From Herbiconiux sp. VKM Ac-1786 (lineage in GTDB: Bacteria > Actinomycetota > Actinomycetes > Actinomycetales > Microbacteriaceae), in contig NZ_JADKSG010000001.1 in assembly GCF_015350805.1 (NCBI RefSeq), forward strand, positions 1,536,513-1,600,512: a DNA stretch of 64,000 nt, given 5' to 3'. The position numbers and the translations under genes are program-made. Positions 3,746 to 34,402 of the stretch are shown here, one piece after another (position 1 is the stretch's first letter; each line of letters starts with the position of its first letter). The notes beneath the pieces are model-generated. The model saw only the letters and a list, made by a program, of their open reading frames with translations. It did not search any database and was not told the origin of the DNA.

Positions 3746-5040
3746 CCGCACGCCTCCTGTCCGTCGACGAAGAGATCCAGCTGATCGCAGCGAACACGGC
3801 CGCTGCGCCGGGCTCGACCGGGAGCACGTGCGCCCCCGAGCTCGCCGAGGGCCCCTGGGTCTTCGACCTGCAAACGCCCTCCTACGGCCCCGGCGCCTCG
3901 ATGGCCGACCCGCTCCCCGCCGAGGCGCGCCGGCAGGGTGTGCTCCCGGAGGAGTACACGACGGCCTCGAAGAGCGAGCTCGACACGCGCATCCGTCGTG
4001 CCAAGGAGACGCTCGGCGACAGCGTCGTGGTGCTCGGCCACTTCTACCAGCGCGACGAGGTGGTGCAGTACGCCGACTTCGTGGGCGACTCGTTCCAGCT
4101 GGCGAACGCTGCGAAGACTAGGCCGGATGCCCGCGCCATCGTCTTCTGCGGCGTGCACTTCATGGCCGAGACCGCCGACATCCTGGCGCAGCCGTCGCAG
4201 GCGGTGATCCTGCCGAACCTCGCCGCGGGCTGCTCGATGGCCGACATGGCCGACATCGACTCGGTCGAGGAGGCCTGGGAGCAGCTGACGTCCGTGTACG
4301 GATCCGAGCCCGACGCCGAGGGGCGGGTGCCGGTCATCCCGGTCACCTACATGAACTCCTCCGCCGAGCTGAAGGGCTTCTGCGGCCGGAACGGCGGCAT
4401 CGTCTGCACCTCGTCGAACGCGGCGACGGTGCTCGAGTGGGCCTTCGAGCGCGGGCAGCGCGTGCTGTTCTTCCCCGACCAGCACCTCGGGCGCAACACC
4501 GCCAAGGCGATGGGCGTGCCCGTCGAGCGGATGCCGCTGTGGAACCCGCGGAAGACCCTCGGCGGCTCGACCGCGTCCGAGCTGACGGACGCACGGGTCA
4601 TCCTCTGGAACGGGTTCTGCTCGGTGCACAAGCGCTTCACGGTCGCGCAGATCGAGCGGGCCCGGGCCGCACACCCCGACGTTCGGGTGATCGTGCACCC
4701 CGAGTGCCCGATGCCGGTGGTCGACGCGGCCGACGGCGCCGGCTCGACCGACTACATCGTCAAGGCCATCGCCGCCGCCCCCGCCGGCTCGACCTTCGCG
4801 ATCGGCACCGAGATCAACCTCGTGCAGCGCCTCGCGAACGAGTACCCGCAGCACACGATCTTCTGCCTCGACGACGTGATCTGCCCGTGCTCGACGATGT
4901 ACCGCATCCACCCGGGCTACCTCGCCTGGGTGCTCGAGTCGCTCGTCGACGGGGTGGTGCTGAACCAGATCTCGGTGCCGGCGTCGGTGGCCGAGCCGGC
5001 GCGGGTCGCCCTCGAGCGGATGCTCGCGGCCCGGCCATGA
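3742..5040 (+). CDS. nadA: Quinolinate synthase
   Basis: Condenses iminoaspartate (from NadB) with dihydroxyacetone phosphate to give quinolinate, the second step of de novo NAD synthesis, using an oxygen-sensitive [4Fe-4S] cluster. It has 432 residues with the N-terminal extension usual in actinobacteria. Cluster ligands appear to be C136 (FCGVHFMAETADIL), C222 (GGIVCTSSNA) and C381 or C383 (CPCSTMYRIHP); the DQHLGRN, HPECP and TEINLV substrate motifs are present. It overlaps nrtR and nadB by 4 bases at each end, so translation is probably coupled. Confidence 0.97.
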   Translation: MTARLLSVDEEIQLIAANTAAAPGSTGSTCAPELAEGPWVFDLQTPSYGPGASMADPLPAEARRQGVLPEEYTTASKSELDTRIRRAKETLGDSVVVLGHFYQRDEVVQYADFVGDSFQLANAAKTRPDARAIVFCGVHFMAETADILAQPSQAVILPNLAAGCSMADMADIDSVEEAWEQLTSVYGSEPDAEGRVPVIPVTYMNSSAELKGFCGRNGGIVCTSSNAATVLEWAFERGQRVLFFPDQHLGRNTAKAMGVPVERMPLWNPRKTLGGSTASELTDARVILWNGFCSVHKRFTVAQIERARAAHPDVRVIVHPECPMPVVDAADGAGSTDYIVKAIAAAPAGSTFAIGTEINLVQRLANEYPQHTIFCLDDVICPCSTMYRIHPGYLAWVLESLVDGVVLNQISVPASVAEPARVALERMLAARP

Positions 5041-6650
5041 CGACGGCCTCCCCTTCGGCGCAGCGCTCCCGGCGGCCGCGGGTGATCGTGGTGGGCAGCG
5101 GCATCGCCGGCCTGGTCGCCGCACTCGGGCTCGTGGACGAGGCCGACGTCGTCGTCGTCACGAAGGCCGCCGTCGACGACGGCAGCACGCGGTACGCCCA
5201 GGGCGGCATCGCGGCGGCCGTGATGCCGGGCGACTCCGTCGCCGCGCACGTCGCCGACACGCTCGCGGCCGGCGCGGGGCTCGGCGACCCCGAGGCCGTG
5301 CGGGTGCTCTGCTCGGAGGGGCCGGCGCGCATCCGGGAGCTCATCGAGCGGGGTGTCGCCTTCGACCGCGCCGAGGGCGACCCGGGCGGCGGTTTCGACG
5401 CGGGGCTCGAGGGGGCGCACTCGCGGCGGCGCATCCTGCACGCGGGCGGCGACGCGACGGGGCTGGCGGTAGAGACGGCGCTGGTGCGGGCGGTACGGGC
5501 TTCCGCGGTGCGGGTGCTCGAGCACACCATGCTCGTCGATCTGCTGACCGACGGTGCTCCGGGCGCGGGCGCGGGCGCGGGCTCGGGCGCCGACGGGCGG
5601 GGCCGGGTGGTCGGCGTGCGGGTGCTGCGCGCGGGACGGATCGAGGACCTCACGGCCGACGCCGTCGTGCTCGCCACCGGCGGCGCCGGCCAGCTGTACC
5701 CGTTCACCACGAACCCCTCCGTCGCGACTGGCGACGGGGCGGCCGCCGCGCTGCGGGCCGGGGCGCGCCTCGCCGATCTGGAGTTCGTGCAGTTCCACCC
5801 GACGGCGCTCGCCGTGCCGGGTTCCCCGCTGGTATCCGAGGCCGTGCGCGGCGACGGGGCGGTGCTGAGGAACTCGGCCGGGACGCGATTCATGGTCGAC
5901 GTGCATCCGCTCGCCGAGCTCGCCCCGCGGGACGTCGTCGCGCGGGCCATCGCCACCGAGATGCTCGCGACCGGCGCCCCGGTGCTGCTCGACGCCACCG
6001 CGGTCGACGACCTCGAGGCCCGGTTCCCGACGGTCACGGCGGCCTGCCGGGCGGCCGGGTACGACTGGGCGCGGGAACCCGTGCCGGTCGCGCCCGCCGC
6101 CCACTACTGGATGGGCGGCGTCGCCACCGACCTCGACGGCCGCACCTCGGTGCCCGGCCTCGTGGCCGTCGGCGAGGTCGCCTGCACCGGGGTGCACGGG
6201 GCCAACCGCCTGGCCTCGAACTCCCTGCTCGAGGGTCTCGTCTTCGCCCACCGGGCGGCTGCCGCCCTCTGCGCCGAGTTGCATTCCCCGAGCGGCATGA
6301 TCGCCCCGAGCCAGCCGTCGGCATCGGATGCGCGGCCCACCGCACCCTCCCACGAACCCACCCGGGCCGAGCTCCAGGCCCTGATGTGGCAGCACGCCGG
6401 TCTCCTCCGAACGGCGCACGGCCTGCTCGAGGCGCAGCGCACGCTCGACTCGTGGAGCGTCGACACGTCCCGCAGCACCGACGTCGAGCGGCTCGAGACC
6501 GCCAATCTGCTGCAGCTCGCGCGGGCGCTGGTGAGCGCCGCACTCGCACGCGAGGAGTCGCGCGGGGCGCACGCACGAGCCGACTTCCCGCTGCCCTCGC
6601 CCGACTTCGCGACCCGACCCCGCCGAACCAGAGAAGAGGTCAGCGTCTGA
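5037..6650 (+). CDS. nadB: L-aspartate oxidase
   Basis: FAD flavoprotein that oxidises L-aspartate to iminoaspartate for NadA. It has 537 residues. The FAD dinucleotide-binding motif VVGSGIAGLVAA is at the N-terminus, followed by RYAQGGIAAA, HAGGDATG, ATGGAGQLYPFTTNP, FVQFHPTAL and the C-terminal HGANRLASNSLLEG stretch, in family order. A Gly/Ala-rich linker around residue 180 is a local low-complexity insert. The ATG at 5037 overlaps the nadA stop, and the gene ends one base into nadC. Corynebacterium glutamicum lacks nadB in its homologous operon, so this operon is the fuller version. Confidence 0.96.
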   Translation: MTTASPSAQRSRRPRVIVVGSGIAGLVAALGLVDEADVVVVTKAAVDDGSTRYAQGGIAAAVMPGDSVAAHVADTLAAGAGLGDPEAVRVLCSEGPARIRELIERGVAFDRAEGDPGGGFDAGLEGAHSRRRILHAGGDATGLAVETALVRAVRASAVRVLEHTMLVDLLTDGAPGAGAGAGSGADGRGRVVGVRVLRAGRIEDLTADAVVLATGGAGQLYPFTTNPSVATGDGAAAALRAGARLADLEFVQFHPTALAVPGSPLVSEAVRGDGAVLRNSAGTRFMVDVHPLAELAPRDVVARAIATEMLATGAPVLLDATAVDDLEARFPTVTAACRAAGYDWAREPVPVAPAAHYWMGGVATDLDGRTSVPGLVAVGEVACTGVHGANRLASNSLLEGLVFAHRAAAALCAELHSPSGMIAPSQPSASDARPTAPSHEPTRAELQALMWQHAGLLRTAHGLLEAQRTLDSWSVDTSRSTDVERLETANLLQLARALVSAALAREESRGAHARADFPLPSPDFATRPRRTREEVSV

Positions 6651-7537
6651 TGCTCACCACCCACATCATCGACGACGTCGTCGCCAGGGCTCTCGCCGAG
6701 GACGCGCCCTGGGGCGACCTGACCTCCGAGCTGCTCATTCCCGAAGAGGCATGGGCGTCGGCGCGCCTCGAGGCCCGGGAGCCCGGGGTGTTCAGCGGGG
6801 GCGCCGTGTGGGAGGCGACGATGCGACGGGTCGACCCGCGCATCCGCTCGGCTCTGCTCGTCGACGACGGGGAGCGCTTCGAGGCGGGCGCCGTGCTGGC
6901 GACGGTCGAGGGGCCGGCCCGCGGCATCCTGCGGGCCGAGCGGGTCGCGCTCAATCTCGTGCAGCGGATGAGCGCCATCGCGACCGAGACCGCCCGCTAC
7001 GTCGCCGCGGTCGCGGGCACCGGTGCGCGCATCGTCGACACGCGCAAGACCACGCCAGGCCTGCGGGCCCTGGAGCGCGCGGCGGTACGGGCGGGCGGTG
7101 GGCACAACCACCGCTTCTCGCTGTCGGACGCCGTGCTCGCCAAGGACAACCACCTTGCCGTGCTCGCGCAGCAGCACGGGGGCGACGTGACCGAGGCCAT
7201 CCGCGCGGTGCGGGCGCAGCTCTCGCACACCACCCACCTCGAGGTCGAGGTCGACCGCCTCGACCAGATCGAGCCGGTGCTCGCGGGCGGCGTCGACACG
7301 ATCCTGCTCGACAACTTCACCCTCGACGAGCTGCGCGCGGGCGTCGCTCTCGTCGCCGGCCGCGCCCTCGTCGACGCGAGCGGCGGCGTGACCCTCGACA
7401 GCGTCGGCGCGATCGCCCGCACCGGCGTCGACCTCATCTCGGTCGGCGCGCTCACGCACTCGGTGCGCGCCCTCGACCTCGGTCTCGACATCGGGCTCCC
7501 GGAGGCGCGTCCGGCCGCCCCGCCGGCGCGACCGTGA
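6650..7537 (+). CDS. nadC: Nicotinate-nucleotide pyrophosphorylase (carboxylating)
   Basis: Quinolinate phosphoribosyltransferase, which converts quinolinate plus PRPP to nicotinate mononucleotide. 295 residues, normal length. Seen motifs: EDAPWGDLTSE at the N-terminus, ERVALNLVQRMSAIAT, the TRKTTPGLR substrate loop, GGGHNHR, AKDNH, EVEVDRLDQ, ILLDNF and the SGGV phosphate loop. The ATG shares its A with the nadB stop codon and the 3' end overlaps nadS by 4 bases, so the whole operon is translationally coupled. Confidence 0.97.
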   Translation: MLTTHIIDDVVARALAEDAPWGDLTSELLIPEEAWASARLEAREPGVFSGGAVWEATMRRVDPRIRSALLVDDGERFEAGAVLATVEGPARGILRAERVALNLVQRMSAIATETARYVAAVAGTGARIVDTRKTTPGLRALERAAVRAGGGHNHRFSLSDAVLAKDNHLAVLAQQHGGDVTEAIRAVRAQLSHTTHLEVEVDRLDQIEPVLAGGVDTILLDNFTLDELRAGVALVAGRALVDASGGVTLDSVGAIARTGVDLISVGALTHSVRALDLGLDIGLPEARPAAPPARP

Positions 7538-8673
7538 TCCACCTCGACGCGGCCGCCACCACGCCCGTGCGGCGTGAGGTGCTCGAGGCGATGTGGCCGT
7601 TCCTCACCGGGGAGTTCGGCAACCCGTCGAGCCACCACGCGCTCGGCGACGCCGCCTCCCGCGCGTTGGCGGGGGCGCGGCGCACGGTGGCCGAGTGGCT
7701 GGGCTGCCGTCCGGCGGAGCTCGTCTTCACCTCGGGCGGCACCGAGGGCGCCAACCTCGCGGTGAAGGGGCTGGCGCTCGGCAGCCCGCGGGGGCGGCAC
7801 GTCGTGCTGAGCGCGGTCGAGCATCCGGCGGTCGTCGAGTCGGTCGACCACCTGCGGAGGCTGCACGGCTTCGACGTCACCGTCGTGCCCGTCGACGGCA
7901 CGGGCCTCGTCGACCCGTCCGCGTTCGCCGATGCCCTGCGCGACGACACCACGCTCGCCAGCGTGATGCTCGCGAACAACGAGATCGGCACGGTGCAGCC
8001 CGTGACCGAGCTCGCGGCGATCGCCCACGCCCGGGGCGTGCCGGTGCACACGGATGCCGTGCAGGCCGCCGGCTGGCTCGACCTGCGCCTCGACACGCTC
8101 GGCGTCGACGCGGTGAGCATCTCGGGTCACAAGCTCGGCGCGCCCAAGGGCATCGGCGCGGTGGCGGTGCGCGGCCGCCATCCGCTCGAGCCGGTGCTGC
8201 ACGGCGGCGGCCAGGAGCGGGGCCGCCGCTCCGGCACCGAGAACGTGGCCTTCGCGGTGGGCCTCGCCCGCGCGGTCGAGCTCGCGGAGCCGGGCCGGGC
8301 CGCCGCCGTCACGCGCACGACCGCCCTGCGCGACGGCTTCGTCGCTGAGGTGCTGCGCCGGGTCGACGGGGCCGTGCCGACCGGGCATCCGGATGCCCGC
8401 CTGCCCTCGATCGCCTCGTTCTGCTTCCCGGGCACGAGCGGCGAGGCGGTGCTGCTCGGCCTCGAGGAGCGCGGGGTGATCGTCTCGAGCGGATCGGCCT
8501 GCGCCGCCGGCAGCGACGAGCCCTCGCCGGTGCTGCTCGCGATCGGACTCGACCCCGCCGTCGCCCGGACCGCCGTGCGCTTCACCTTCACCGCGGCGAC
8601 GACGGCCGACGATCTCGCGGCCGCCGCGGCCTCGCTCGAGGCGACGATCGCATCGCTGGCGACCCTGCGCTGA
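7534..8673 (+). CDS. nadS: Cysteine desulfurase supporting NadA cluster assembly
   Basis: PLP-dependent class V aminotransferase-fold enzyme of the NifS/IscS group, 379 residues. The PLP lysine is K200 in SISGHKLGAPKG and the sulfur-carrying cysteine is C323 in SSGSACAAGS; HLDAAATTPVR and TSGGTEGAN motifs are intact. It starts with GTG overlapping the nadC stop. Its place as last gene of the nad operon matches nadS, which in Corynebacterium is needed for the iron-sulfur cluster of quinolinate synthase. A dedicated role in NadA maturation is therefore well supported by context. Confidence 0.93.
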   Translation: MIHLDAAATTPVRREVLEAMWPFLTGEFGNPSSHHALGDAASRALAGARRTVAEWLGCRPAELVFTSGGTEGANLAVKGLALGSPRGRHVVLSAVEHPAVVESVDHLRRLHGFDVTVVPVDGTGLVDPSAFADALRDDTTLASVMLANNEIGTVQPVTELAAIAHARGVPVHTDAVQAAGWLDLRLDTLGVDAVSISGHKLGAPKGIGAVAVRGRHPLEPVLHGGGQERGRRSGTENVAFAVGLARAVELAEPGRAAAVTRTTALRDGFVAEVLRRVDGAVPTGHPDARLPSIASFCFPGTSGEAVLLGLEERGVIVSSGSACAAGSDEPSPVLLAIGLDPAVARTAVRFTFTAATTADDLAAAAASLEATIASLATLR

Positions 8674-25309: not shown

Positions 25310-25469
25310 GCCCGAGCGGGGTGGGGGGCACCGGCGCCGACCGGCGCAGCCCTGCCCCGGGGCGGTCGCGCCCCCGTGATCCCGGGCCGCGCCGCCGGCC
25401 CAGGGTGGCGAAGCGCGGCCAACACACGGCCGCAACGCGGGTGAAACAGGGGCGTCCTACTCTTCGAGC

Positions 25470-27140
25470 GTGACCTTCTCACCCGCCTCCCGCGCCTCCG
25501 TGGTGATCTTCTCGGGGCCCCGCGCCACCATCCAGAACAGTGCAGCGCTGCGCACGAGCCAGTCGGTGCGCCAGGCGCGCGGGCTCGCCGGCGCCGATGC
25601 GAGCCTGCCCGAGTCGCTGCGCGCCCAGCAGCTGGCCGCGCCGGTGACCGCGTACGTCAAGGCCTTCTCCGCGCATCCGCTCGAGAAAGACGCTCAGGAG
25701 CTGTACGGCCCGGTCGACGGCTGGCTCGACCCGGCGTCGGGCGAGTTCAGCGCCGACGCGCGCGACGGCTGGACCCCCGTCTACGAGGTCACCCTGGACC
25801 CCGCGAAGGGCCCGTTCCCGCTGCCCTACGCGGCGACCCAGGCGAACGGCGAGCCGTGGGACGGCCCGTTCGACGACAACGGCACCGCCCGGCAGCTGTT
25901 CTACCCCGACGCCTCGCGCATCGTGGCCGAGATCGACCGTTTCGGCCTCGACGGCTACGGCGGCAACAACCTGATGAGCGGCGTGGCCGACTTCGACTTC
26001 GTGCGGGCGGCGCCCTCGGGCGGCTACACGAAGGGGCAGCCGGCGGCCGAGCGCACCGACTCCGCGCTCCTCGGAAGCGAGCACGGCGACCTGCCGCCCG
26101 AGGTGCTCGGCGAGGACTTCTTCCCCTACATGCCGATGCGCCAGGAGCCCGCGCTGCCGACGCTCGCCGCCCTGACGAACATCGTCTACGACACCCTGAC
26201 GAACGGTGACTACGACGGCGCCATCTGGCTCGAGGGCAGCCCCACCACCGAGGAGACGGTCTACTGGTTGAACCTCGTCATCCCCACCCGCCGCCCGCTG
26301 ATCGGCAACTGCTCGCAGTACGGCCACGGCGTCTTCGGCAACGACGGCGACCACAACCTCGTGCAGTCGGTCAACTACATCGCCTCGGGCGTCTGGGCCG
26401 ACGAGCAGGGCGACGACCGGGTCGGCGCCGTGATGATCCAGAACGGCCAGGTCTTCACCAGCCGCGAGGTGCAGAAGGCGGATGCCCGTCCCGGCGGCTA
26501 CATCGCCTACGGCGGCCACGGCGGCATCGTGGGCAACACGGTCGAGGACCCGGTGCTCTCCTTCGTGCCGGTCGCCCGCCACACGTCCACCTCGGCGCTC
26601 CGCCTCGACCGGCTTCCGGATGCCGTGACCGGCCTCCACGGCGACGCCGTCGTGACCCGTGACGACGCCGGGCACCTCCGGCCCGAGGCGATGCCCAAGG
26701 TGACCATCGCCCGCTACGTCAACTACGGGCAGGACGACTTCAGCGACAGCGCCGACAGCGAGGTCGAGATCCTCGCCCGGATCGAGAAGAACCTGCGCGA
26801 CCATCCGCTCTCCGGTCTCGTGGCCGAGGGCTCGGCGCCCTACGGCGGCGTCTACGAGTCGATGCGGGCGTCGCTGCTGAAGGGCGTCTTCCGAGGGATG
26901 CCCGTGGTGGCGGTCGGCCGCGGCGGAGGCGGCTACGCGTTCGGGCAGTCGACGATCGGCGGACTGTTCATCCGGGGCAGCAACCTCTCGGCGCCGAAGG
27001 CCCGCATCCTGCTGATGGCGTGCCTGCTGAAGTTCGGGGCGCTGCCGCTGCCGGCCGACCCGGAGGCGCCGACGCCGGCCGAGCTCGACGCCATCCGCTC
27101 CGCGGTGGCCGAGTACCAGACCATCTTCGACACCCACTAG
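25470..27140 (+). CDS. Asparaginase-like amidohydrolase, divergent
   Basis: A 556-residue protein related to the L-asparaginase I/II fold. GPRATI near the N-terminus corresponds to the GTGGTI nucleophile loop and keeps the threonine. GAIWLEGSPTTEETVYWLNL corresponds to the VITHGTDTMEETAYFLDL region, but the catalytic T-D pair is replaced by S-P. A roughly 150-residue insert separates the two. The C-terminal GLVAEGSAPYGGVYESMRASL matches the small domain. So it is probably an amidase or a related hydrolase with another substrate. GTG start, 6 bases after TACTCT. First gene of an operon with two flavin monooxygenases. Confidence 0.7.
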   Translation: MTFSPASRASVVIFSGPRATIQNSAALRTSQSVRQARGLAGADASLPESLRAQQLAAPVTAYVKAFSAHPLEKDAQELYGPVDGWLDPASGEFSADARDGWTPVYEVTLDPAKGPFPLPYAATQANGEPWDGPFDDNGTARQLFYPDASRIVAEIDRFGLDGYGGNNLMSGVADFDFVRAAPSGGYTKGQPAAERTDSALLGSEHGDLPPEVLGEDFFPYMPMRQEPALPTLAALTNIVYDTLTNGDYDGAIWLEGSPTTEETVYWLNLVIPTRRPLIGNCSQYGHGVFGNDGDHNLVQSVNYIASGVWADEQGDDRVGAVMIQNGQVFTSREVQKADARPGGYIAYGGHGGIVGNTVEDPVLSFVPVARHTSTSALRLDRLPDAVTGLHGDAVVTRDDAGHLRPEAMPKVTIARYVNYGQDDFSDSADSEVEILARIEKNLRDHPLSGLVAEGSAPYGGVYESMRASLLKGVFRGMPVVAVGRGGGGYAFGQSTIGGLFIRGSNLSAPKARILLMACLLKFGALPLPADPEAPTPAELDAIRSAVAEYQTIFDTH

Positions 27141-27198
27141 CCGTGCCGGCGGCCGAGCCGCCCAGCCCATCGTCAGCACCCAGAACAGGAGCACCACC

Positions 27199-28266
27199 AT
27201 GGTCAGCTACGGCGTCTTCCTCCCCGTCGGCAACAACGGCTGGATCCTCTCCACCACCTCGCCCCAGTACGAGCCGACCTTCGCCCTGCAGCGCAGCATC
27301 GTCGAGAAGGCCGAGCACTACGGCCTCGACTTCGCCCTCGCCATGCTGAAGTACCGCGGCTACGGCGGTGAGACCCAGCACTGGAACCACACGATCGACC
27401 CGATGACCCTGATGGCCGCGCTCGCCCCGATCACCAGCAGGATCAAGCTCTACGCCACCGTCTCCCCCCTCAGCTACAACCCGATCGTGGTGGCGAAGAT
27501 GGCCCAGCTGATCGACGAGGTCTCCGGCGGCCGCTTCGGCATCAACCTCGTGGCCGGCTGGAACCGCAGCGAGTATGCCCAGATGGGCGCCTGGCGCGGC
27601 GACGACTACTACGGCTACCGGTACGACTACCTCAGCGAGTTCACCCAGATCCTGCTCACCGCGTGGGAGACCGGCCGCGTCACCTTCCACGGCGAGTACT
27701 TCGACATCGAGGACTGCGAGGTGCTGCCCACTCCCGTCGGGCACATCGACCTCATCTCGGCCGGCTCCTCGCCGCGCGGCCGCCGCTTCGTGGCCGAGTA
27801 CGCCGACTACCACTTCGGCTCGGGCCAGAGCGCCGAGGAGGTGGCCGCCTCGAACGCCCACCTCGCGGCCGAGAGCGAGAGCCTCGGCCGCACGCCCGGC
27901 TCCTTCGCCACGACCCTCGTCGTGATGGGCGACACGGATGCCGATGCGGCCCGCAGGGTCGAGCTCTACCAGCGCGGGGTCGACCGGGGTGCGGTGGAGG
28001 GCATGGTGCGCGAGTACTCCAACGACACCAGCACCGACGGCTCGAGCGCGGCGGTCGCCGCGAGCCACCGCGCCGACGTCTCGCCGTTCTACGGCGGGCG
28101 CGCCCTCGTCGGCTCGCCGCAGACGGTGGCCGACCACCTCAACGCCATCGCGGCGGTGCCCGGGACTGCGGGCACAATGCTCACCTTCGACGACTTCGAG
28201 GAGGGCCTCGACCGCTTCGGCACCGAGGTCATGCCGCTGCTCGACCACCTGCCGACGAAAGGCTGA
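27199..28266 (+). CDS. RutA-like FMN-dependent monooxygenase
   Basis: A 355-residue luciferase-like flavin monooxygenase. It closely resembles E. coli RutA, which opens the uracil ring: VFLPVGNNGWILSTTSPQY, IVEKAEHYGLDFALAM, GGRFGINLVAGWNRSEYAQMG, GDDYYGYRYDYLSEF and the late MLTFDDFEEGLDRFG. RutA uses reduced FMN and oxygen in an unusual N5-peroxide type reaction to cleave an amide C-N bond. Here the other rut genes (B, C, D) are missing, so uracil itself may not be the substrate. AGGAG lies 7 bases before the ATG. FMN reductase genes are 5 kb downstream. Confidence 0.85.
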   Translation: MVSYGVFLPVGNNGWILSTTSPQYEPTFALQRSIVEKAEHYGLDFALAMLKYRGYGGETQHWNHTIDPMTLMAALAPITSRIKLYATVSPLSYNPIVVAKMAQLIDEVSGGRFGINLVAGWNRSEYAQMGAWRGDDYYGYRYDYLSEFTQILLTAWETGRVTFHGEYFDIEDCEVLPTPVGHIDLISAGSSPRGRRFVAEYADYHFGSGQSAEEVAASNAHLAAESESLGRTPGSFATTLVVMGDTDADAARRVELYQRGVDRGAVEGMVREYSNDTSTDGSSAAVAASHRADVSPFYGGRALVGSPQTVADHLNAIAAVPGTAGTMLTFDDFEEGLDRFGTEVMPLLDHLPTKG

Positions 28267-28273
28267 CCCGCCC

Positions 28274-29620
28274 GTGCCCTACCAGATGAGCCTCGCCCTC
28301 GACCTCTCGTTCTCGCACCACCAGGGCCGCTGGCGGCTGCCCGGCTCGTGGGAGGGCCGCACCTTCCCCGACCTGCGGATGTACACCGAGCTGCTGCTCG
28401 CCGCCGAGCGCGGCTGCCTCGACATGGTGTTCTTCGGCGACGGCTCCGGCATCCCCTCCACCTATGGCGACTCGATCGACGCGGCCGTTGAGTGGGGCAT
28501 CGGCTACCCGCGCCAGGACATGAGCCCGTTCATCGCGGCCCTCGCGCAGCAGACGCAGCACATCGGCTTCGGGCTGACCTACTCGTCGACCTTCATGCAT
28601 CCGTTCTACGTCGCCCGGCTGCTGAACTCGCTCGACCTCGTCACCCAGGGCCGGATGGCGTTCAACGTGGTGGCCTCCAGCCGGGGAGCGGATGCGGCCA
28701 ACTACGGCTTCGACGCCCTGATGGACCACGACGCCCGCTACCGCCGGATGGAGGAGTTCGTCACCGTCTGCCAGGAGCTCTGGCGGAGCGTCGACCGCGA
28801 CGCCTTCGTCTGGGACAAGGAGACGGGGATGGTCGCCGAGCCCGGCCGCATCCGGCCGATCGATCACGCGGGGGAGTTCTTCCAGGTGAAGGGGCCGCTG
28901 AACTCGGTGCCGAGCCCGCAGCAGGCGCCCGTGCTGATCCAGGCGGGCGGGTCGCCGCGGGGCATCCGGGCCTCGTCGGGCTTCGCCGACGTGGTGTTCG
29001 GCGGCGCCTTCGACAACGGCGACCGCGCGAGGCATCGCGCCGCGCTCGACGAGGCGCTGCTCGAGCAGGGGCGCGACCCGTCGCGGGTCGGCATCCTCTG
29101 GGACCTGCAGCTGATCGTCGGCGAGACCACCGACGACGCGCTCCGCCGCAAGCGGCAGCTCGCCGACCTCCTGCCGCCCGAGGCCGCCGCGGCGCAGTTC
29201 GCCAACAACACCGGCTACGACTTCGCCAAGCTGCCGGCCCGGTTCACGCTGACCGAGCTGACGGCCGAGGTGATCGCGAAGCAGGCCAGCCCGATGGGCT
29301 TCCGCGACCTCGTGAACGAGCACGGCGCCGACACCGAGCTGAGCCGGGAGGAGTTCTTCGACTCGCTCTGGAAGGTCGCCACCGGCTACGAGCACACGGT
29401 CGCCGGGAGCGCGGCCGAGGTGGCCGACTACCTCGAGGAGTCGTACGAGGCCACCGGCAGCCGGGGCGGCTTCATGGTCGCGCATCCGCAGGTCACGCCC
29501 CGCGACCTGATCGACGTGGTGGGGCTGCTCGTGCCCGAGCTGCAGCGGCGCGGACGGTTCCGCACCCGCTACGACGGCACGACCCTCCGCGACACCCTCG
29601 GGGTGCCCGCCTTCGCGTGA
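28274..29620 (+). CDS. NtaA/SnaA/DszA-type FMN-dependent monooxygenase
   Basis: A 448-residue long-form luciferase-like monooxygenase. Typical motifs: FFGDGSGIPS near residue 55, RLLNSLDLVTQGRMAFNVVAS, DHDARYRRMEEFVTVCQELW, HAGEFFQVKGPLNSVPSPQQAPVLIQAGGSPRGI. Family members cleave C-N or C-S bonds (nitrilotriacetate, dibenzothiophene sulfone) and need reduced FMN from a partner reductase. It begins 7 bases after the RutA-like gene; GTG at 28274 is chosen from AAAGG upstream, though an ATG at 28286 is possible. It should act in the same pathway as the RutA-like enzyme. Confidence 0.87.
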   Translation: MPYQMSLALDLSFSHHQGRWRLPGSWEGRTFPDLRMYTELLLAAERGCLDMVFFGDGSGIPSTYGDSIDAAVEWGIGYPRQDMSPFIAALAQQTQHIGFGLTYSSTFMHPFYVARLLNSLDLVTQGRMAFNVVASSRGADAANYGFDALMDHDARYRRMEEFVTVCQELWRSVDRDAFVWDKETGMVAEPGRIRPIDHAGEFFQVKGPLNSVPSPQQAPVLIQAGGSPRGIRASSGFADVVFGGAFDNGDRARHRAALDEALLEQGRDPSRVGILWDLQLIVGETTDDALRRKRQLADLLPPEAAAAQFANNTGYDFAKLPARFTLTELTAEVIAKQASPMGFRDLVNEHGADTELSREEFFDSLWKVATGYEHTVAGSAAEVADYLEESYEATGSRGGFMVAHPQVTPRDLIDVVGLLVPELQRRGRFRTRYDGTTLRDTLGVPAFA

Positions 29621-29632
29621 GAGTCTGAGACC

Positions 29633-30433
29633 GTGAGCCCCGAGAACCCGACCGGCCGCCCCGCCGGACCGCCGCGGCGGCGCAGCTTCACCGAGGACAA
29701 GATCCTCGACCTCGGCCAGCACCGCCGGCAGGACGAGGCGCGGCGCCTGCGCGACCTCGTCTCGGCCTTCGTGCTCTCGGGCGCGACCGACGGGGAGCGG
29801 CTGCCGAGCGACGAGGAGATCGCCCGCGAGTTCTCGTGCACCCGCAACACGGCCCGCATCGCGATGCAGATGCTCGTGCAGGAGAACACCATCGGCCGCA
29901 CCGCCGGCCAGGGCACCTACGCGAACCCGCGCCCGCTGACCTGGCGCACCGACCGGCTGCTCGATCAGCTGAAAATCGATCCGGCGCCGCTCGACCACGA
30001 CTACGTGCTGATCGGCTGGCGCGAGACCACCGCGGTGCCGACTCCGATGGCTGCCCTGTTCGACGAGACGGTCGACCGGATGGCCGTGTTCGAGCGGGTC
30101 ATCCTCTACAAGGGGCGGGCCGGTTCGCTGCGCACCTACTACCTGCCGCTGCGTCCCGGCGACGAGTTCGGGCGGGCCGACGCGAACGACGACGTGTTCG
30201 AGATCATCGAGAGCCGGTTCGGGCATGAGCGGCTGACGGCCGACCGCCAGATCAGCGCCATCTCGGCCGACCTCTCGGCCGCCGAGCTGCTCGCGACCGA
30301 GGTGGGCACGCCGCTGCTGTTCATCGAGACGACCGTGCGGGAGCCGGGCGGTACCGTGGTGATGATCTACCACGGGCGGCAGCGCTCCGATCAGGTGCGG
30401 ATCGCGCTGGAGCCGTCGCGCGGCGACCTGTAG
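29633..30433 (+). CDS. GntR/HutC-family regulator with UTRA domain
   Basis: A 266-residue regulator. The winged helix (about residues 38-100) reads RLRDLVSAFVLSG...RLPSDEEIAREFSCTRNTARIAMQMLVQENTIGRTAGQGTY in pieces typical of GntR. The UTRA effector domain (about 115-262) ends RQISAISADLSAAELLATEVGTPLLFIETTVREPGG. It is the fourth gene of the monooxygenase operon (12-base gap), so it likely senses the substrate or an intermediate and represses the cluster. Its GTG start has no strong ribosome site. It converges on the MFS gene with a 6-base gap. Confidence 0.9.
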   Translation: MSPENPTGRPAGPPRRRSFTEDKILDLGQHRRQDEARRLRDLVSAFVLSGATDGERLPSDEEIAREFSCTRNTARIAMQMLVQENTIGRTAGQGTYANPRPLTWRTDRLLDQLKIDPAPLDHDYVLIGWRETTAVPTPMAALFDETVDRMAVFERVILYKGRAGSLRTYYLPLRPGDEFGRADANDDVFEIIESRFGHERLTADRQISAISADLSAAELLATEVGTPLLFIETTVREPGGTVVMIYHGRQRSDQVRIALEPSRGDL

Positions 30434-30439
30434 GGCCGG

Positions 30440-31651
30440 TCACGGCGTGCCGGGGCGGCGGGCCACCGCGGGCGCGAGCAGCACGAGCGCCGCGACGAGC
30501 ACCGCCGCGATGACCGAGACCGCCGCGAGGGCGCCCGCCGCGTCGGCGAGCGCGAACACCGCGAGCGGACCCACCGCCGCGCCGACGTCGCCGGCGGTGC
30601 GCGTGAGCCCCACCACCGCGCCCGCCGCCGCCGGCTCGAAGCGCTCGCCGGTGACGACGTTCGGCACCACCCCGGCGACGCTGGTCGAGACGTAGTAGAC
30701 GACGATCACGGCGCCGAAGGCGAGCGGCGCGTTCACGATCGGGAAGAGCATCAGGGCCCCCGCCCCCACGAGCGCCGAGGGCAGCAGCACGCTCAAGCGT
30801 GCGCCCCGGTCGACGACCCGGCCCACCACGGGCAGGGCGGCGATGCTGATGAGCGTGCCGGCGGCCATCGCGACGCCGAGGGTCAGCGGCGTGAGTCCGC
30901 CGGTGTCGTACGCGAGCACCGGGATCAGTCCCTGCTCGCCGGCGAAGCGGGCCAGGAAGGTGGCGAACGAGACCGCCACGAGCCCCACGACGAGGGCGCC
31001 GGCGCCGGTGGGGAGACGGCGGCGCGGACGGGAGGCGGCGGCGCGAGCATCCGTCGTCTCGTCGCCCGCATCGGGGGCGGAGGGCTTCGGCGCGAAGGCC
31101 GCCCAGTAGTGCGTCGCCGGCCGCGCGAGGTCGACGACGAGGCAGGCGACGAGCGGCAGCACCGCCACCGCGAAGGCCCCGGCCACCCCCAGCACCGTGA
31201 CCGCGGCGCCGCCGAGCAAGGCGCCGACGGCGGATCCGCTCATCATCACCACGGTCGCCGTCGACATGGTGCGGCCCCGGCGCTCGGGCGGGGCACCCGC
31301 GACGAGCACCGAGAAGCCGATCGTCACGGCCGCCCCGCCGAGCACGCCCGCCACCAGCCGGGCGACCAGCAGTAGCGGCTCGCTCGGCAGCAGCCCGGTC
31401 ACCGCGGTGACCAGCGCGAGCAGCACCGAGACGAGCTGCAGGAAGCGCCGCGGCGGCACCCGCCGGAGCGCCAGCCCGGCCGGCACGTTCGCGATCACGC
31501 GGCCGATCGCGAACGCCGCGATCAGCAGCCCGATGCTGCCCGTGCCGATGCCGAAGCGCTCGACCAGCAGCGGCAGGGCCGGCACGATGACGCCCCAGGT
31601 CATCTGCGCCGACGCGATGAACGCGCAGACGAGGATCGCCTGCGCGTTCAT
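30440..31651 (-). CDS. MFS transporter
   Basis: A 403-residue major facilitator with about 12 hydrophobic segments and a charged central loop (about residues 185-215, rich in Arg, Asp and Ala). The loop 2-3 motif is seen as GRVIANVPAGLALRRVPPRR. Drug-exporter-like. It lies 41 bases downstream of the solute-binding lipoprotein gene on the same strand, so both seem to form one operon facing the monooxygenase cluster. It may export products or take up the substrate; direction cannot be told. Confidence 0.88.
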   Translation of the reverse strand: MNAQAILVCAFIASAQMTWGVIVPALPLLVERFGIGTGSIGLLIAAFAIGRVIANVPAGLALRRVPPRRFLQLVSVLLALVTAVTGLLPSEPLLLVARLVAGVLGGAAVTIGFSVLVAGAPPERRGRTMSTATVVMMSGSAVGALLGGAAVTVLGVAGAFAVAVLPLVACLVVDLARPATHYWAAFAPKPSAPDAGDETTDARAAASRPRRRLPTGAGALVVGLVAVSFATFLARFAGEQGLIPVLAYDTGGLTPLTLGVAMAAGTLISIAALPVVGRVVDRGARLSVLLPSALVGAGALMLFPIVNAPLAFGAVIVVYYVSTSVAGVVPNVVTGERFEPAAAGAVVGLTRTAGDVGAAVGPLAVFALADAAGALAAVSVIAAVLVAALVLLAPAVARRPGTP

Positions 31652-31692
31652 GCCCAGCGGGCGCCCCGCGAGGGGGCCGGGGGTGCGGTCGG

Positions 31693-32871
31693 TCAGTCGG
31701 TCATCCCGATCGTCGTGTCGAGGAACTCGTTCGTCACGAGGTCGGCCGGGGTGAGACCGTCGGCGGGGGTGACTCCCTGCGTCGTGTAGACCGGGATCAC
31801 CTTGTCCATCAGGTCCTGCACGCGGGCCTCGTCGAAGTCGCCGAGGGTGTCGTTGTCGCCGTTGCCCGAGATGCCGTCCTCGATCATCGTCTTCACCGCG
31901 TAGTCGGCGACGCCCTGCGAGTAGACCCAGCCGGTGTCGTACTGCTCCGCCAGGTCGAGGATCAGCGCGTTGGCCTCAGCGGGATCGGCGAAGTAGTCGA
32001 CCTCCGCCTGCTGCAGCACCGGCACGATGGCCTTCAGGCACTCGGACTGCTCGGTGACGTCGGCCGAGCGCACGACCACCGGGTCCTGGTAGGGCCGGAA
32101 GCCGAGGTCGTCGATGAGCTGGTAGGCCACGGGCTTCATCCAGTTCTCCACCTCGTTCTCGTAGATGTAGGGCTCGGCCGAAGCGTAGCCCTGCTGCGCG
32201 TCCTTGCCATCGGCGGCCACGAAGTTGGCCGGGGTGCCGTCGTACGAGGCGTCGGTCTGCTCAGCGGGGATGACGCCCGCCGAGGTCAGGTACTGCATGT
32301 AGGCGGTGTCGGCGAAGTAGCGGATGATCGCCCCCGACTCCACCAGCTCGGGCACGGTCGTGACGTCGGGGTAGGTCTCCGGGTCCCACATGATCATCAG
32401 CGGGCTGATGTCGTGCGAGGCGAACACGGCCGTCGTGGGCATCTCGGCCGACTGCGCGATCGACTCGTCGGTCGAGACGTAGCCGAGCAGGATGTCGGGG
32501 TCGGTGTACATCAGGCTCGACACGGGCTGGAACCCCGTCGCCGGGCCGCCCGCCCGGATCTCGACGTCGACGCCGGTGTACTCGCCCGCCGAGTAGAGGG
32601 GGCCCGAGACCGACTTGGCGGTCGTGTCGATCACCGGGTCGGGGCCGAGCAGCTCGTAGAGGTGGCCGTGCTCGGCCTCCGGGTTCCAGCCCGTCTGGAT
32701 GACGACGGTCGCCGGGCAGACGCCCGACAGGTCGACGTCGCCGACGGCGGCCGCCGGCGTGGAGCCGCCGGACTCCTCGGCCGAGCTGCCGGAGCTGCAG
32801 GCGCTGAGAGCCAGAGCCGTCACGGCGACGAGGCCGACGGCTGAGGCGAGGCGGGGAACGGATCGGGGCAT
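31693..32871 (-). CDS. ABC-type solute-binding lipoprotein (NitT/TauT-like), orphan
   Basis: A 392-residue extracytoplasmic binding protein. The signal peptide ends in lipobox LALSAC, followed by a Ser/Gly linker. The mature domain opens CPATVVIQTGWNPEAEHGHLY and carries NFVAADGKDAQQGYASAEPYIYENE, like NMT1/THI5-type proteins that bind sulfonates, pyrimidine precursors or aromatics. No permease or ATPase gene is in the window, and the next gene is an MFS transporter. Its partner transporter must be elsewhere, or it acts as a sensor. ATG at 32871 is chosen for the signal peptide. Confidence 0.8.
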   Translation of the reverse strand: MPRSVPRLASAVGLVAVTALALSACSSGSSAEESGGSTPAAAVGDVDLSGVCPATVVIQTGWNPEAEHGHLYELLGPDPVIDTTAKSVSGPLYSAGEYTGVDVEIRAGGPATGFQPVSSLMYTDPDILLGYVSTDESIAQSAEMPTTAVFASHDISPLMIMWDPETYPDVTTVPELVESGAIIRYFADTAYMQYLTSAGVIPAEQTDASYDGTPANFVAADGKDAQQGYASAEPYIYENEVENWMKPVAYQLIDDLGFRPYQDPVVVRSADVTEQSECLKAIVPVLQQAEVDYFADPAEANALILDLAEQYDTGWVYSQGVADYAVKTMIEDGISGNGDNDTLGDFDEARVQDLMDKVIPVYTTQGVTPADGLTPADLVTNEFLDTTIGMTD

Positions 32872-33273
32872 GGCGTCTCCATCTGTCGAAGGGCGCTCCG
32901 GTGGGGCGGAGGCGCGGGAATGGTGCAGGTGGTGCGAGCGGAGCCAGTCTGTCCTGCCGTCGTTGCACCGGTGTTTCGGCACCGCGAAGGATCGATTGCG
33001 CCACTTCCTCCGCGCCAGAACGCGCGGCGGGCGAGCGGCTGCGCCACCGTCGGCGCCGGCCCGGCGAGCGGATGCGCATCCGCTCTCTGACGGATTGTTA
33101 CTGGCGAAATACGCCCGAAACCTCGGGTGCCGATACTGGAAGGGCAACGTAAGCCGTTGCGGGCCCACCGAGCCACAAGACCTCGGTGGAGTGTTGAGCG
33201 AAGTGGATGTCTCGCGCTGCGGCTCGCGTCACCGCTTCCTCATTTCCTGTCAATCGGTATGAAGTGAGAAGCA
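32872..33273. other. 402-bp divergent regulatory region
   Basis: No convincing gene lies here. It separates the binding-protein/MFS operon (leftward) from the flavin reductase operon (rightward). The right half holds three hairpins (see next entry) and a GATACT -10-like box at 33132-33137. It is less GC-rich than neighbouring genes. An operator for the GntR regulator would be expected here, but I find no palindrome shared with the promoter before 25470. Confidence 0.6.
33114..33189 (+). promoter_or_regulatory. Candidate structured 5' leader upstream of FMN reductase
   Basis: Three consecutive perfect hairpins: CCCGA/TCGGG (33114-33127), GCAACG/CGTTGC with a 5-base loop (33144-33160) and CCACCGAG/CTCGGTGG with a 9-base loop (33165-33189). 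They end 84 bases before the FMN reductase ATG. I do not recognise a known riboswitch class. It may be an attenuator, a new ligand-binding leader, or simply protein-binding sites. Confidence 0.4.
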
Positions 33274-33816
33274 ATGGCACTGAAGGTCACCATCGTCGTC
33301 GGCAACCCGAAGCCGCGCTCGCGCACGCTCAAGGTCGCCGAGACCCTGGTCGAGAAGCTGCTCGTGCCGGGATCGTACGAGCTCGAGATCATCGACCTCG
33401 CCGATCACACGGGCGAGATCTTCGCGTGGCCCTCCGAGACGATGGCCGCCCTGAACGAGCGGGTCGCCGCGAGCGACCTGGCCGTGTTCGCGTCGCCGAC
33501 CTACAAGGCGACGTACACGGGGCTCCTCAAGGCGTTCCTCGACCGCTATCCCGCGAACGGCCTCGCGGGGGTGACGGCGATCCCGGTGCACACCGGGGGC
33601 GACCTCACCCACGCCATGGGCCCGACCGTGAACCTCGCACCGCTGCTCGTCGAGCTCGGTGCGGTGGTTCCGGGGCGCGGGTTCTACTTCGTCGCCGGCC
33701 AGATGGACCATCTCGACGAGATCGTGTCCCAGGCCGCGGCGGAGTATGCGCGGAACCTCGCGCGGCTGGCCGTGGTGGCCGGCGCCGCCGCTTCTTCCTC
33801 TGCACCGGTTGCGTGA
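33274..33816 (+). CDS. NADPH-dependent FMN reductase
   Basis: A 180-residue flavodoxin-fold reductase of the SsuE/MsuE type. The phosphate-binding loop GNPKPRSRTLKVA is near residue 10, and SPTYKATYTGLLKAFLDRYP is the isoalloxazine-binding segment. It makes reduced FMN for two-component monooxygenases and is well placed to serve the RutA-like and NtaA-like enzymes 4-6 kb upstream. The C-terminus is Ala/Ser rich. A ribosome site is weak (GTGAGAAGCA before the ATG). First gene of a two-gene operon. Confidence 0.92.
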   Translation: MALKVTIVVGNPKPRSRTLKVAETLVEKLLVPGSYELEIIDLADHTGEIFAWPSETMAALNERVAASDLAVFASPTYKATYTGLLKAFLDRYPANGLAGVTAIPVHTGGDLTHAMGPTVNLAPLLVELGAVVPGRGFYFVAGQMDHLDEIVSQAAAEYARNLARLAVVAGAAASSSAPVA

Positions 33817-33832
33817 CCGCAAGGAGACGGAC

Positions 33833-34402
33833 ATGACCATCGCACCAGACCGCGCGCTCTCGGGCGCCGCACCGGACATCGCCTCGGGCGGCGCCCCGGG
33901 CCTCGCCCCGGCGGCCATCGACCCGCGGGTGTTCCGCGACACGCTCGGGCACTACGCCTCGGGCATCACCATCATCGGCGGCATCGAGGACGGCGCCCCC
34001 GTCGGCTTCACCTGCCAGTCGTTCTACTCGGTCTCGACCGAGCCCCCGCTGGTGTCGTTCAGCGTGATGACGACGTCGACGACCTACCCGCGCATCCGCT
34101 CGACCGGCCGCTTCTCGGTGAACGTGCTCTCGCACCACCAGCACACCGTGTCGAACCAGTTCGCGCGCTCGGGCACCGACAAGTGGGCGGGCATCGACTG
34201 GTCGCCCGCCGCCTCGGGCAACCCCGTGATCGCCGACACCCTGATGTGGCTCGACTGCGACATCTGGGCCGAGCACGAGGCGGGCGACCACCTGATCGTG
34301 ATCGGGCGGGTGAACGAGATGAGCCCGGCGTCGTGGCACAGGCACGACCCGCTGCTGTACTTCAAGGGGAAGTACCGGCACCTTCGGGAGGTGGAGGGGT
34401 AG
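33833..34402 (+). CDS. Flavin reductase family protein (RutF/HpaC-like)
   Basis: A 189-residue flavin reductase-like domain protein with a split-barrel fold. After an Ala/Pro/Gly-rich N-terminal extension of about 28 residues comes FRDTLGHYASGITIIGG, then GFTCQSFYSVSTEPPLVSFSV, FSVNVLSHHQ and the H-rich end. It supplies reduced flavin to a partner oxygenase using NAD(P)H. AAGGAG lies 6 bases before the ATG, and the gene follows the FMN reductase by 16 bases. Two reductases match the two monooxygenases of the cluster. Confidence 0.92.
   Translation: MTIAPDRALSGAAPDIASGGAPGLAPAAIDPRVFRDTLGHYASGITIIGGIEDGAPVGFTCQSFYSVSTEPPLVSFSVMTTSTTYPRIRSTGRFSVNVLSHHQHTVSNQFARSGTDKWAGIDWSPAASGNPVIADTLMWLDCDIWAEHEAGDHLIVIGRVNEMSPASWHRHDPLLYFKGKYRHLREVEG

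Follow-up and report, generated by a model that had tools for sequence, protein, structure and literature searches.

Which compound would a bacterium take apart with two flavin-dependent monooxygenases and an asparaginase-like protein encoded side by side? This question is raised by eight genes that all lie inside positions 25470-34402 of the window, a 64,000-nucleotide (nt) stretch of a 3.89 Mb Herbiconiux genome. Four of them follow one another on the forward strand as a putative operon, namely ASN, an asparaginase-fold protein and candidate amide hydrolase of 556 amino acids (aa) that starts with the GTG codon at 25470 (25470-27140; PF00710, 33.4 bits), a RutA-like flavin monooxygenase of 355 aa (27199-28266; TIGR03612, 384 bits), an NtaA/DmoA-family flavin monooxygenase of 444 aa, hereafter NtaA-like (28286-29620; TIGR03860, 366.3 bits), and a GntR/UTRA regulator (29633-30433; PF00392 and PF07702). 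The gene set and coordinates given in a preliminary description of this DNA held up, with every superfamily matched in Pfam or NCBIfam except that of a solute-binding protein; two open reading frame (ORF) calls were made by script, and genes may have been missed or misplaced because the DNA is GC-rich. The host is not Microbacterium, a genus that the description had brought up, but Herbiconiux, and Herbiconiux gentiana carries an ASN that is 95% identical.

We consider it fairly probable that these genes form an operon by which the cell gains nitrogen from a small cyclic amide or imide, with a uracil-like N-heterocycle as the likeliest substrate. Nitrogen limitation, acting through a GlnR-type promoter box, would control the operon together with the substrate, sensed by the GntR/UTRA regulator; the compound would be taken up by a binding protein and/or a transporter of the major facilitator superfamily (MFS), and reduced flavin mononucleotide (FMNH2) would be supplied by two reductases. 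In the order of reactions that we infer, the RutA-like enzyme would form a flavin-N5-peroxide and break a C-N bond of a ring amide, a second oxidative cleavage by the NtaA-like enzyme would follow, either an N-dealkylation or the breaking of another ring bond, and the asparaginase-fold enzyme would hydrolyse the exposed amide or ureide and free ammonia, which is the role of RutB in uracil catabolism. The locus would offer a short, testable gene set for a nitrogen source, and a probable coupling of two flavin-N5-peroxide enzymes within one pathway.

Conservation of the operon

Neighbourhood comparison identified the same gene order (ASN, RutA-like, NtaA-like, GntR) in all nine distinct genomes examined, an arrangement termed type A (the window, L034, L035, L036, L037, L114, L115, L116 and L117; L122 and L123 come from the genomes of L036 and L037, respectively). 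A related set lies on a plasmid of Agrobacterium vitis, where one stretch encodes a flavin reductase, a GntR regulator, an ABC system, RutA-type and NtaA-type proteins, a small protein and ASN, the NtaA being 59% identical to the NtaA-like protein of the window. On these comparative grounds, the grouping is more than chance. Within a set of 299 Microbacteriaceae genomes, for which only the best few candidates per genome were scored, an identical group of eight genomes from three genera holds ASN (at least 70% identity), the RutA-like gene (at least 70%) and the NtaA-like gene (at least 77%), and three of the seven Herbiconiux genomes in the set hold none of the three. The preliminary description had made its case depend on the genes being conserved together, and they are.

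A class-wide draw of 394 genomes returned ASN in three and the NtaA-like protein in five at the set thresholds, with the window's genome counted in both, and a lower-identity ASN group (L118 to L121) occurs without the monooxygenases too. A congener of two type-A genomes (genome G143, L027) carries at 1501-1611 a 37-residue ASN fragment of 54% identity within a 46-aa open frame, possibly the remnant of a lost operon.

The RutA-like enzyme

The RutA-like protein falls below the cut-off of the RutA model (384 against 498.3 bits), on which the RutA of a rut operon (L158), of Rhizobium (L160) and of another Microbacteriaceae genome (L162) score 684, 622 and 606 bits, respectively, and a tree places the protein on a separate branch next to rut-type RutA and Rhodococcus RutA. 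With the RutA numbering offset fixed by hand from the pattern of T105, N134 and V136, all six residues of the O2 pocket (L65, T105, N134, V136, W139 and F224) are present, and 10 of 13 positions, the pocket included, read the same as in E. coli RutA; the other three (145, 149 and 164) differ and are variable also in the RutA of the L158 rut operon. According to excerpts of the respective reports, mutating T105, N134 or V136 of RutA abolishes activity, T105S excepted (PMC7662398), and W139 is a further residue of this kind (PMC10005588); all six pocket residues listed above are named in these two reports. Given that the pocket residues are kept, the enzyme probably works like RutA even though it misses the family cut-off, and the earlier label "RutA-like" names the right type for a protein that remains under the RutA threshold.

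Such a close match raises the possibility of a uracil or thymine operon, in which the RutA-like enzyme would open uracil itself and ASN would replace RutB as ureidoacrylate amidohydrolase. We regard this as unlikely. While the shared positions, the natural variation at the remaining three and the neighbouring position of the RutA-like clade in the tree all speak for it, the protein scores more than 100 bits below the cut-off that L162 RutA and rut-operon RutA clear, and the NtaA partner, unneeded for the uracil route, is encoded in all nine type-A genomes. The preliminary description had allowed for a uracil-specific RutA with other rut genes elsewhere in the genome; of this, the RutB part was checked, and no RutB above the cut-off was found in the genome (best 57.1 bits against 377.95), in a search by which 2 of 14 control genomes did show one above it. 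RutC, RutD and RutE are absent from the eight genes of the locus by Pfam and NCBIfam, and no genome search for them was made.

RutA genes were also seen in other company. Those of L160 (8992-13616), L162, L163 and L164 accompany amidases and an isochorismatase-type hydrolase whose match is weak, the two that were scored (L160 and L162) both being above the RutA cut-off. On a plasmid of Rhodococcus sp. PD04 (L157, 39-13955), a RutA-type gene lies with a cytosine-deaminase-like hydrolase, two reductases, an Opp-type ABC system, a formamidase and an amidase, which is likely another N-heterocycle cluster.

Pairing of the two monooxygenases

The NtaA-like protein passes the NtaA/DmoA cut-off (366.3 against 279.7 bits), and its closest solved protein is DszA, so that the NtaA/DszA-type label of the preliminary description is borne out; the EDTA and nitrilotriacetate monooxygenases are also among its structural relatives, with DszA outscoring the EDTA enzyme. 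Thr106 and Asn135, assigned to the O2 pocket of DszA in an excerpt of PMC11134501, are conserved in an alignment counted by hand. Across the 299 Microbacteriaceae genomes, each of the 28 places with at least 55% identity to the NtaA-like protein starts at most 2.3 kb from a RutA-type gene (as judged by eye from the positions; a stop codon is present in two of these places). Eight of these pairs belong to the ASN module, and 20 to a module with a different RutA type, termed type B, whose RutA also stands alongside the NtaA-like gene in three of three loci from other actinobacterial families.

The window's own genome contains a type-B module on another contig (L137, contig C2 296000-314000, at 4806-7893). 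It comprises genes for an NtaA-type enzyme, an isochorismatase-type hydrolase and a RutA-type enzyme different from that of the operon, and an NMT1/Ssu-type ABC permease and a second NtaA-type enzyme are encoded nearby. The hydrolase sits between the NtaA-RutA pair in L137 (BiuH model, 43/370 bits) and in L213, and none was identified between the pair in L212 or L214.

A GlnR-type box and the choice between nitrogen and sulfur

Pattern matching and alignment across loci revealed a GlnR-type box ahead of ASN (25421-25447, forward strand), with half-sites AACAC-n6-GCAAC-n6-GAAAC, followed by a putative -10 element, TACTCT (25458-25463, forward strand), 6 nt before the GTG start. Upstream of the first gene of the operon, all nine type-A genomes align as [AG][TA]CAC-n6-GCAA[CT]-n6-GAAAC-n10-TAnnnT, with a constant spacing between GAAAC and TAnnnT; the core GCAAC-n6-GAAAC was counted in nine of nine, with a GCAAT variant in L117, and the start codon follows TAnnnT by 6 nt in seven, so that the transcript may be leaderless. 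In L116 and L117, the box precedes an ABC permease gene, which there is the first of the operon. A slightly wider pattern of the box occurs exactly once per locus in 10 of 10 type-A loci (nine distinct genomes; 18 to 64 kb, both strands), including once in the window; for a narrower one, 100 random sequences generated from the dinucleotide frequencies of the window gave a rate of 0.0 per 64 kb. General scans for sigma-70 promoters and terminators gave no excess over shuffled sequences.

The box fits the GlnR consensus gTnAc-n6-GaAAc, as stated in an excerpt of PMC10704036, except that C replaces T in the GCAAC half-site; a glnII site listed in the available part of PMC3087709 (GCAAC-n6-GAAAT) has the same C for T. 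In the genome, GTNAC-n6-GAAAC was found at 13 sites, against one for the reversed control, and four of the 13 precede glnA (653 bits, cut-off 429), the type-B module, a cytosine-deaminase-like gene below its cut-off and a DUF1989 gene. That the box marks RutA modules in general was considered and rejected, as the strict pattern was found in none of seven type-B loci and none of five further RutA loci, all of other genomes; the window genome's own type-B module does have a GTNAC-n6-GAAAC site.

Because of its GlnR-type character, the promoter box favours a nitrogen over a sulfur source, with GlnR regulation as the presumed link. This bears on an improbable alternative, a sulfur-acquisition operon in which a sulfone or sulfonate would be the substrate and both monooxygenases would break its C-S bonds, in the manner of DszA, SfnG and SsuD. 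DszA is indeed the nearest solved protein to the NtaA-like enzyme, and there are weak matches of the RutA-like protein to SfnG (159/383 bits) and of one reductase to SsuE (81/164 bits); yet the RutA-like protein fits the RutA model far better than SfnG, the box is of a nitrogen type, and ASN and the company of its relatives (see below) indicate amides. The preliminary description had proposed ring opening or dealkylation followed by amide hydrolysis of an N- or S-heterocycle. Of this, the notion of a catabolic operon in which oxidative cleavage is coupled to probable amide hydrolysis is retained, as is the nitrogen side of the proposal, through the box and the amide-rich company of ASN, while for the sulfur side there are just the resemblance to DszA and the SfnG match. 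We give very little credence to a pathway that degrades an aminopolycarboxylate or N-alkyl compound and in which the NtaA-like protein, as N-dealkylase, performs the main step, for although the NtaA/DmoA-family model is passed and the EDTA and nitrilotriacetate enzymes are structural relatives, DszA scores above the EDTA enzyme and a RutA-type gene, unneeded in such pathways, accompanies the NtaA-like gene in 28 of 28 places.

ASN, an asparaginase fold with an altered active site

ASN exceeds the gathering score of PF00710 (33.4 against 22.5 bits), remains below that of PF17763 (24.9 against 34.6) and lies far below the cut-off for type II L-asparaginase (TIGR00520, 41.2 against 314.3). An AlphaFold2 model built on 57 sequences was of fair to good quality, with a mean pLDDT of 82 and poor regions at 118-143 and 488-492. 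When this model was compared to the PDB, asparaginases and glutaminase-asparaginases made up all of the best 50 of 609 rows, the best match having an E-value of 4.5e-16, about 20% identity over some 340 columns and a TM-score of 0.72 by target and 0.42 by query. By this model ASN has the asparaginase fold, in agreement with its earlier designation as a divergent asparaginase-like hydrolase.

The active site of type II L-asparaginase contains Thr89, Asp90 and Lys162. In a profile alignment, ASN has Ser-Pro at the Thr89-Asp90 positions and retains Lys162. Among 57 family members, T20 is invariant, S257 and K336 are present in 57 of 57, and P258, at the Asp90 position, in 56 of 57; K336 fits the catalytic lysine, and our own reading is that T20, which lies outside all alignments made, is the nucleophile position. 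Asp90 of asparaginase binds the amino group of the substrate, and because proline replaces it here, ASN may be a hydrolase of amides other than amino acids. This matters beyond the operon, since a large protein family is recorded as "asparaginase domain-containing" despite the replaced active-site residue. Tentatively, ASN could represent a widespread class of asparaginase-fold amide hydrolases with a Thr-Ser-Lys site, in which the Asp is lost and the substrates are non-amino-acid amides or ureides, and which, with an obligate RutA and NtaA pair, would form a new two-monooxygenase route for opening N-heterocycles.

Genomic company of ASN relatives

Searching genome_contigs, a species-level collection, showed that 199 of 255 candidate stretches encode ASN relatives. 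Combining the best 80 of these 199 with the window and four plasmid loci yielded 85 loci, near-duplicates included, whose genes were counted according to the named proteins they resemble. At least one urease, formamidase or amidase gene was found in 22 of the 85, with 12 loci having urease, 14 formamidase and 20 amidase genes; RutA-type genes were counted in 8 and NtaA-type genes in 6. We also tallied 83 of 86 nearest same-strand neighbours from 56 loci, after excluding three very long ORFs; 20 of the 85 loci, whose surroundings were described before, had been left out from the start, and 9 more had no neighbour in range. These neighbours included the nitrile hydratase alpha subunit (7), amidase (5) and formamidase (2), among 70 matched families that mostly occurred once or twice. 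Judged by gene neighbourhoods, the ASN family leans to amide and nitrile chemistry, without a tie to ring cleavage.

Other neighbours with nitrogen chemistry are an isochorismatase (L118) and, in two rhizobial loci where a RutA-type gene adjoins ASN without an NtaA gene, a cytosine deaminase (L111, Rhizobium lusitanum; 563 bits, cut-off 403) and a molybdenum hydroxylase (L032, a Neorhizobium plasmid, in which the ASN reading frame is broken into pieces). L111 further encodes a TRZ/ATZ-type hydrolase below the cut-offs and L032 an amidohydrolase and a hydrolase related to that of L111 (by clustering only), and both contain an FMN reductase and an M20-type hydrolase. The idea that ASN simply replaces the isochorismatase hydrolase was rejected, as both occur in one stretch in L118, by Pfam test, and in L119, L120, L121 and L076, by similarity.

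In seven loci, mostly of deltaproteobacterial metagenome-assembled genomes (L038, L043, L045, L046, L050, L052 and L067; individual Pfam test for L045 only), a nitrile hydratase alpha gene comes after ASN, and in five of the seven so does a small beta C-terminal domain gene; the alpha protein of L045 is extended at its N-terminus by about 150 aa. In L030, L033 and ten more loci, mostly of Hyphomicrobiales, the operon that includes ASN also encodes amidases, an Opp-type ABC system, urease and, in most, formamidase; such operons occur on plasmids of gall-associated Rhizobium as well.

Several observations weigh against a nitrogen-acquisition operon for a uracil-like N-heterocycle. Of the 85 ASN loci, just 8 include a RutA-type gene, and in the 394-genome search neither of the two further actinobacterial loci with ASN has a RutA or NtaA label in its surroundings, so that ASN is not confined to ring cleavage. 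The Agrobacterium vitis RutA is only 34% identical to that of the window, from which it differs at L65, R71 and W139. As for the promoter, the upstream half-site in the window reads AACAC, nine of the 13 genome sites have no evident nitrogen gene downstream (the downstream protein was scanned for seven of the nine), the sense strand at amtB showed no box, and the type-B and other RutA loci of other genomes contain none by the strict pattern.

Relation to known systems

Like the rut operon (RutA-F), this locus encodes a RutA-type monooxygenase with a conserved O2 pocket, a flavin reductase and a partner amide hydrolase, with a likely use in nitrogen supply; here, however, the RutA-like protein is under the cut-off, the genome has no RutB above the cut-off, and ASN and the NtaA-like protein take the place of rutB-E among the eight genes. 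The NtaA-like protein shares with the two-component FMN monooxygenases NtaA, DmoA and DszA the family model and the conserved Thr106 and Asn135 of DszA, and differs from them in occurring, at 55% identity or more in the 299 genomes, only beside a RutA-type gene. With type II L-asparaginase (AnsB), ASN shares the fold and a T20 and K336 that fit the catalytic Thr and Lys, whereas it has Ser-Pro for Thr89-Asp90, about 230 extra residues and no asparagine genes as neighbours. Pyridine-type pathways (trigonelline, Tgn; pyridine, Pyr) follow the same logic as that proposed here, with ring opening by a flavin monooxygenase and subsequent amide hydrolysis, and are not known to include an ASN hydrolase. 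The parts are of known kinds, and what is new is how they are combined, the family of asparaginase-fold proteins and the constant pairing of RutA and NtaA types. We found no description of the gene set in the listed titles and abstract openings of open-licence papers, which does not prove its absence from print; the 4-hydroxypyridine degradation treated in an excerpt of PMC7356986 is different from it.

Transport genes and reductases

Convergent with the operon, on the reverse strand, lie genes for an MFS transporter (30440-31651; PF07690) and for a solute-binding protein (31693-32871). The latter has no match in Pfam or NCBIfam and resembles remote NMT1-type proteins by profile comparison only (probability 97.0, 5 against 6 sequences); a structure model, with a pLDDT of 41 on 5 sequences, was not used. 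The locus itself encodes neither an ABC ATPase nor an ABC permease. Transport genes are variable, the window's binding protein being present in seven of the nine type-A genomes, and L116 has an NMT1-type ABC system and a different MFS transporter, as does L117, by similarity.

Two reductase genes follow on the forward strand. The first (33274-33816; PF03358, 85.9 bits) is SsuE-like though below the SsuE cut-off, and confirms the FMN reductase that had been placed after the operon. The second (about 33833-34402; PF01613, 141.8 bits) had been called RutF-like, a name that does not suit a protein scoring 74.6 bits against the RutF cut-off of 254.75 (TIGR03615); its best model is HsaB, at 189.1 bits, under the cut-off of 230. 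The pair adjoins the operon in the window and in L034, and one flavin reductase gene lies near the operon in L116.

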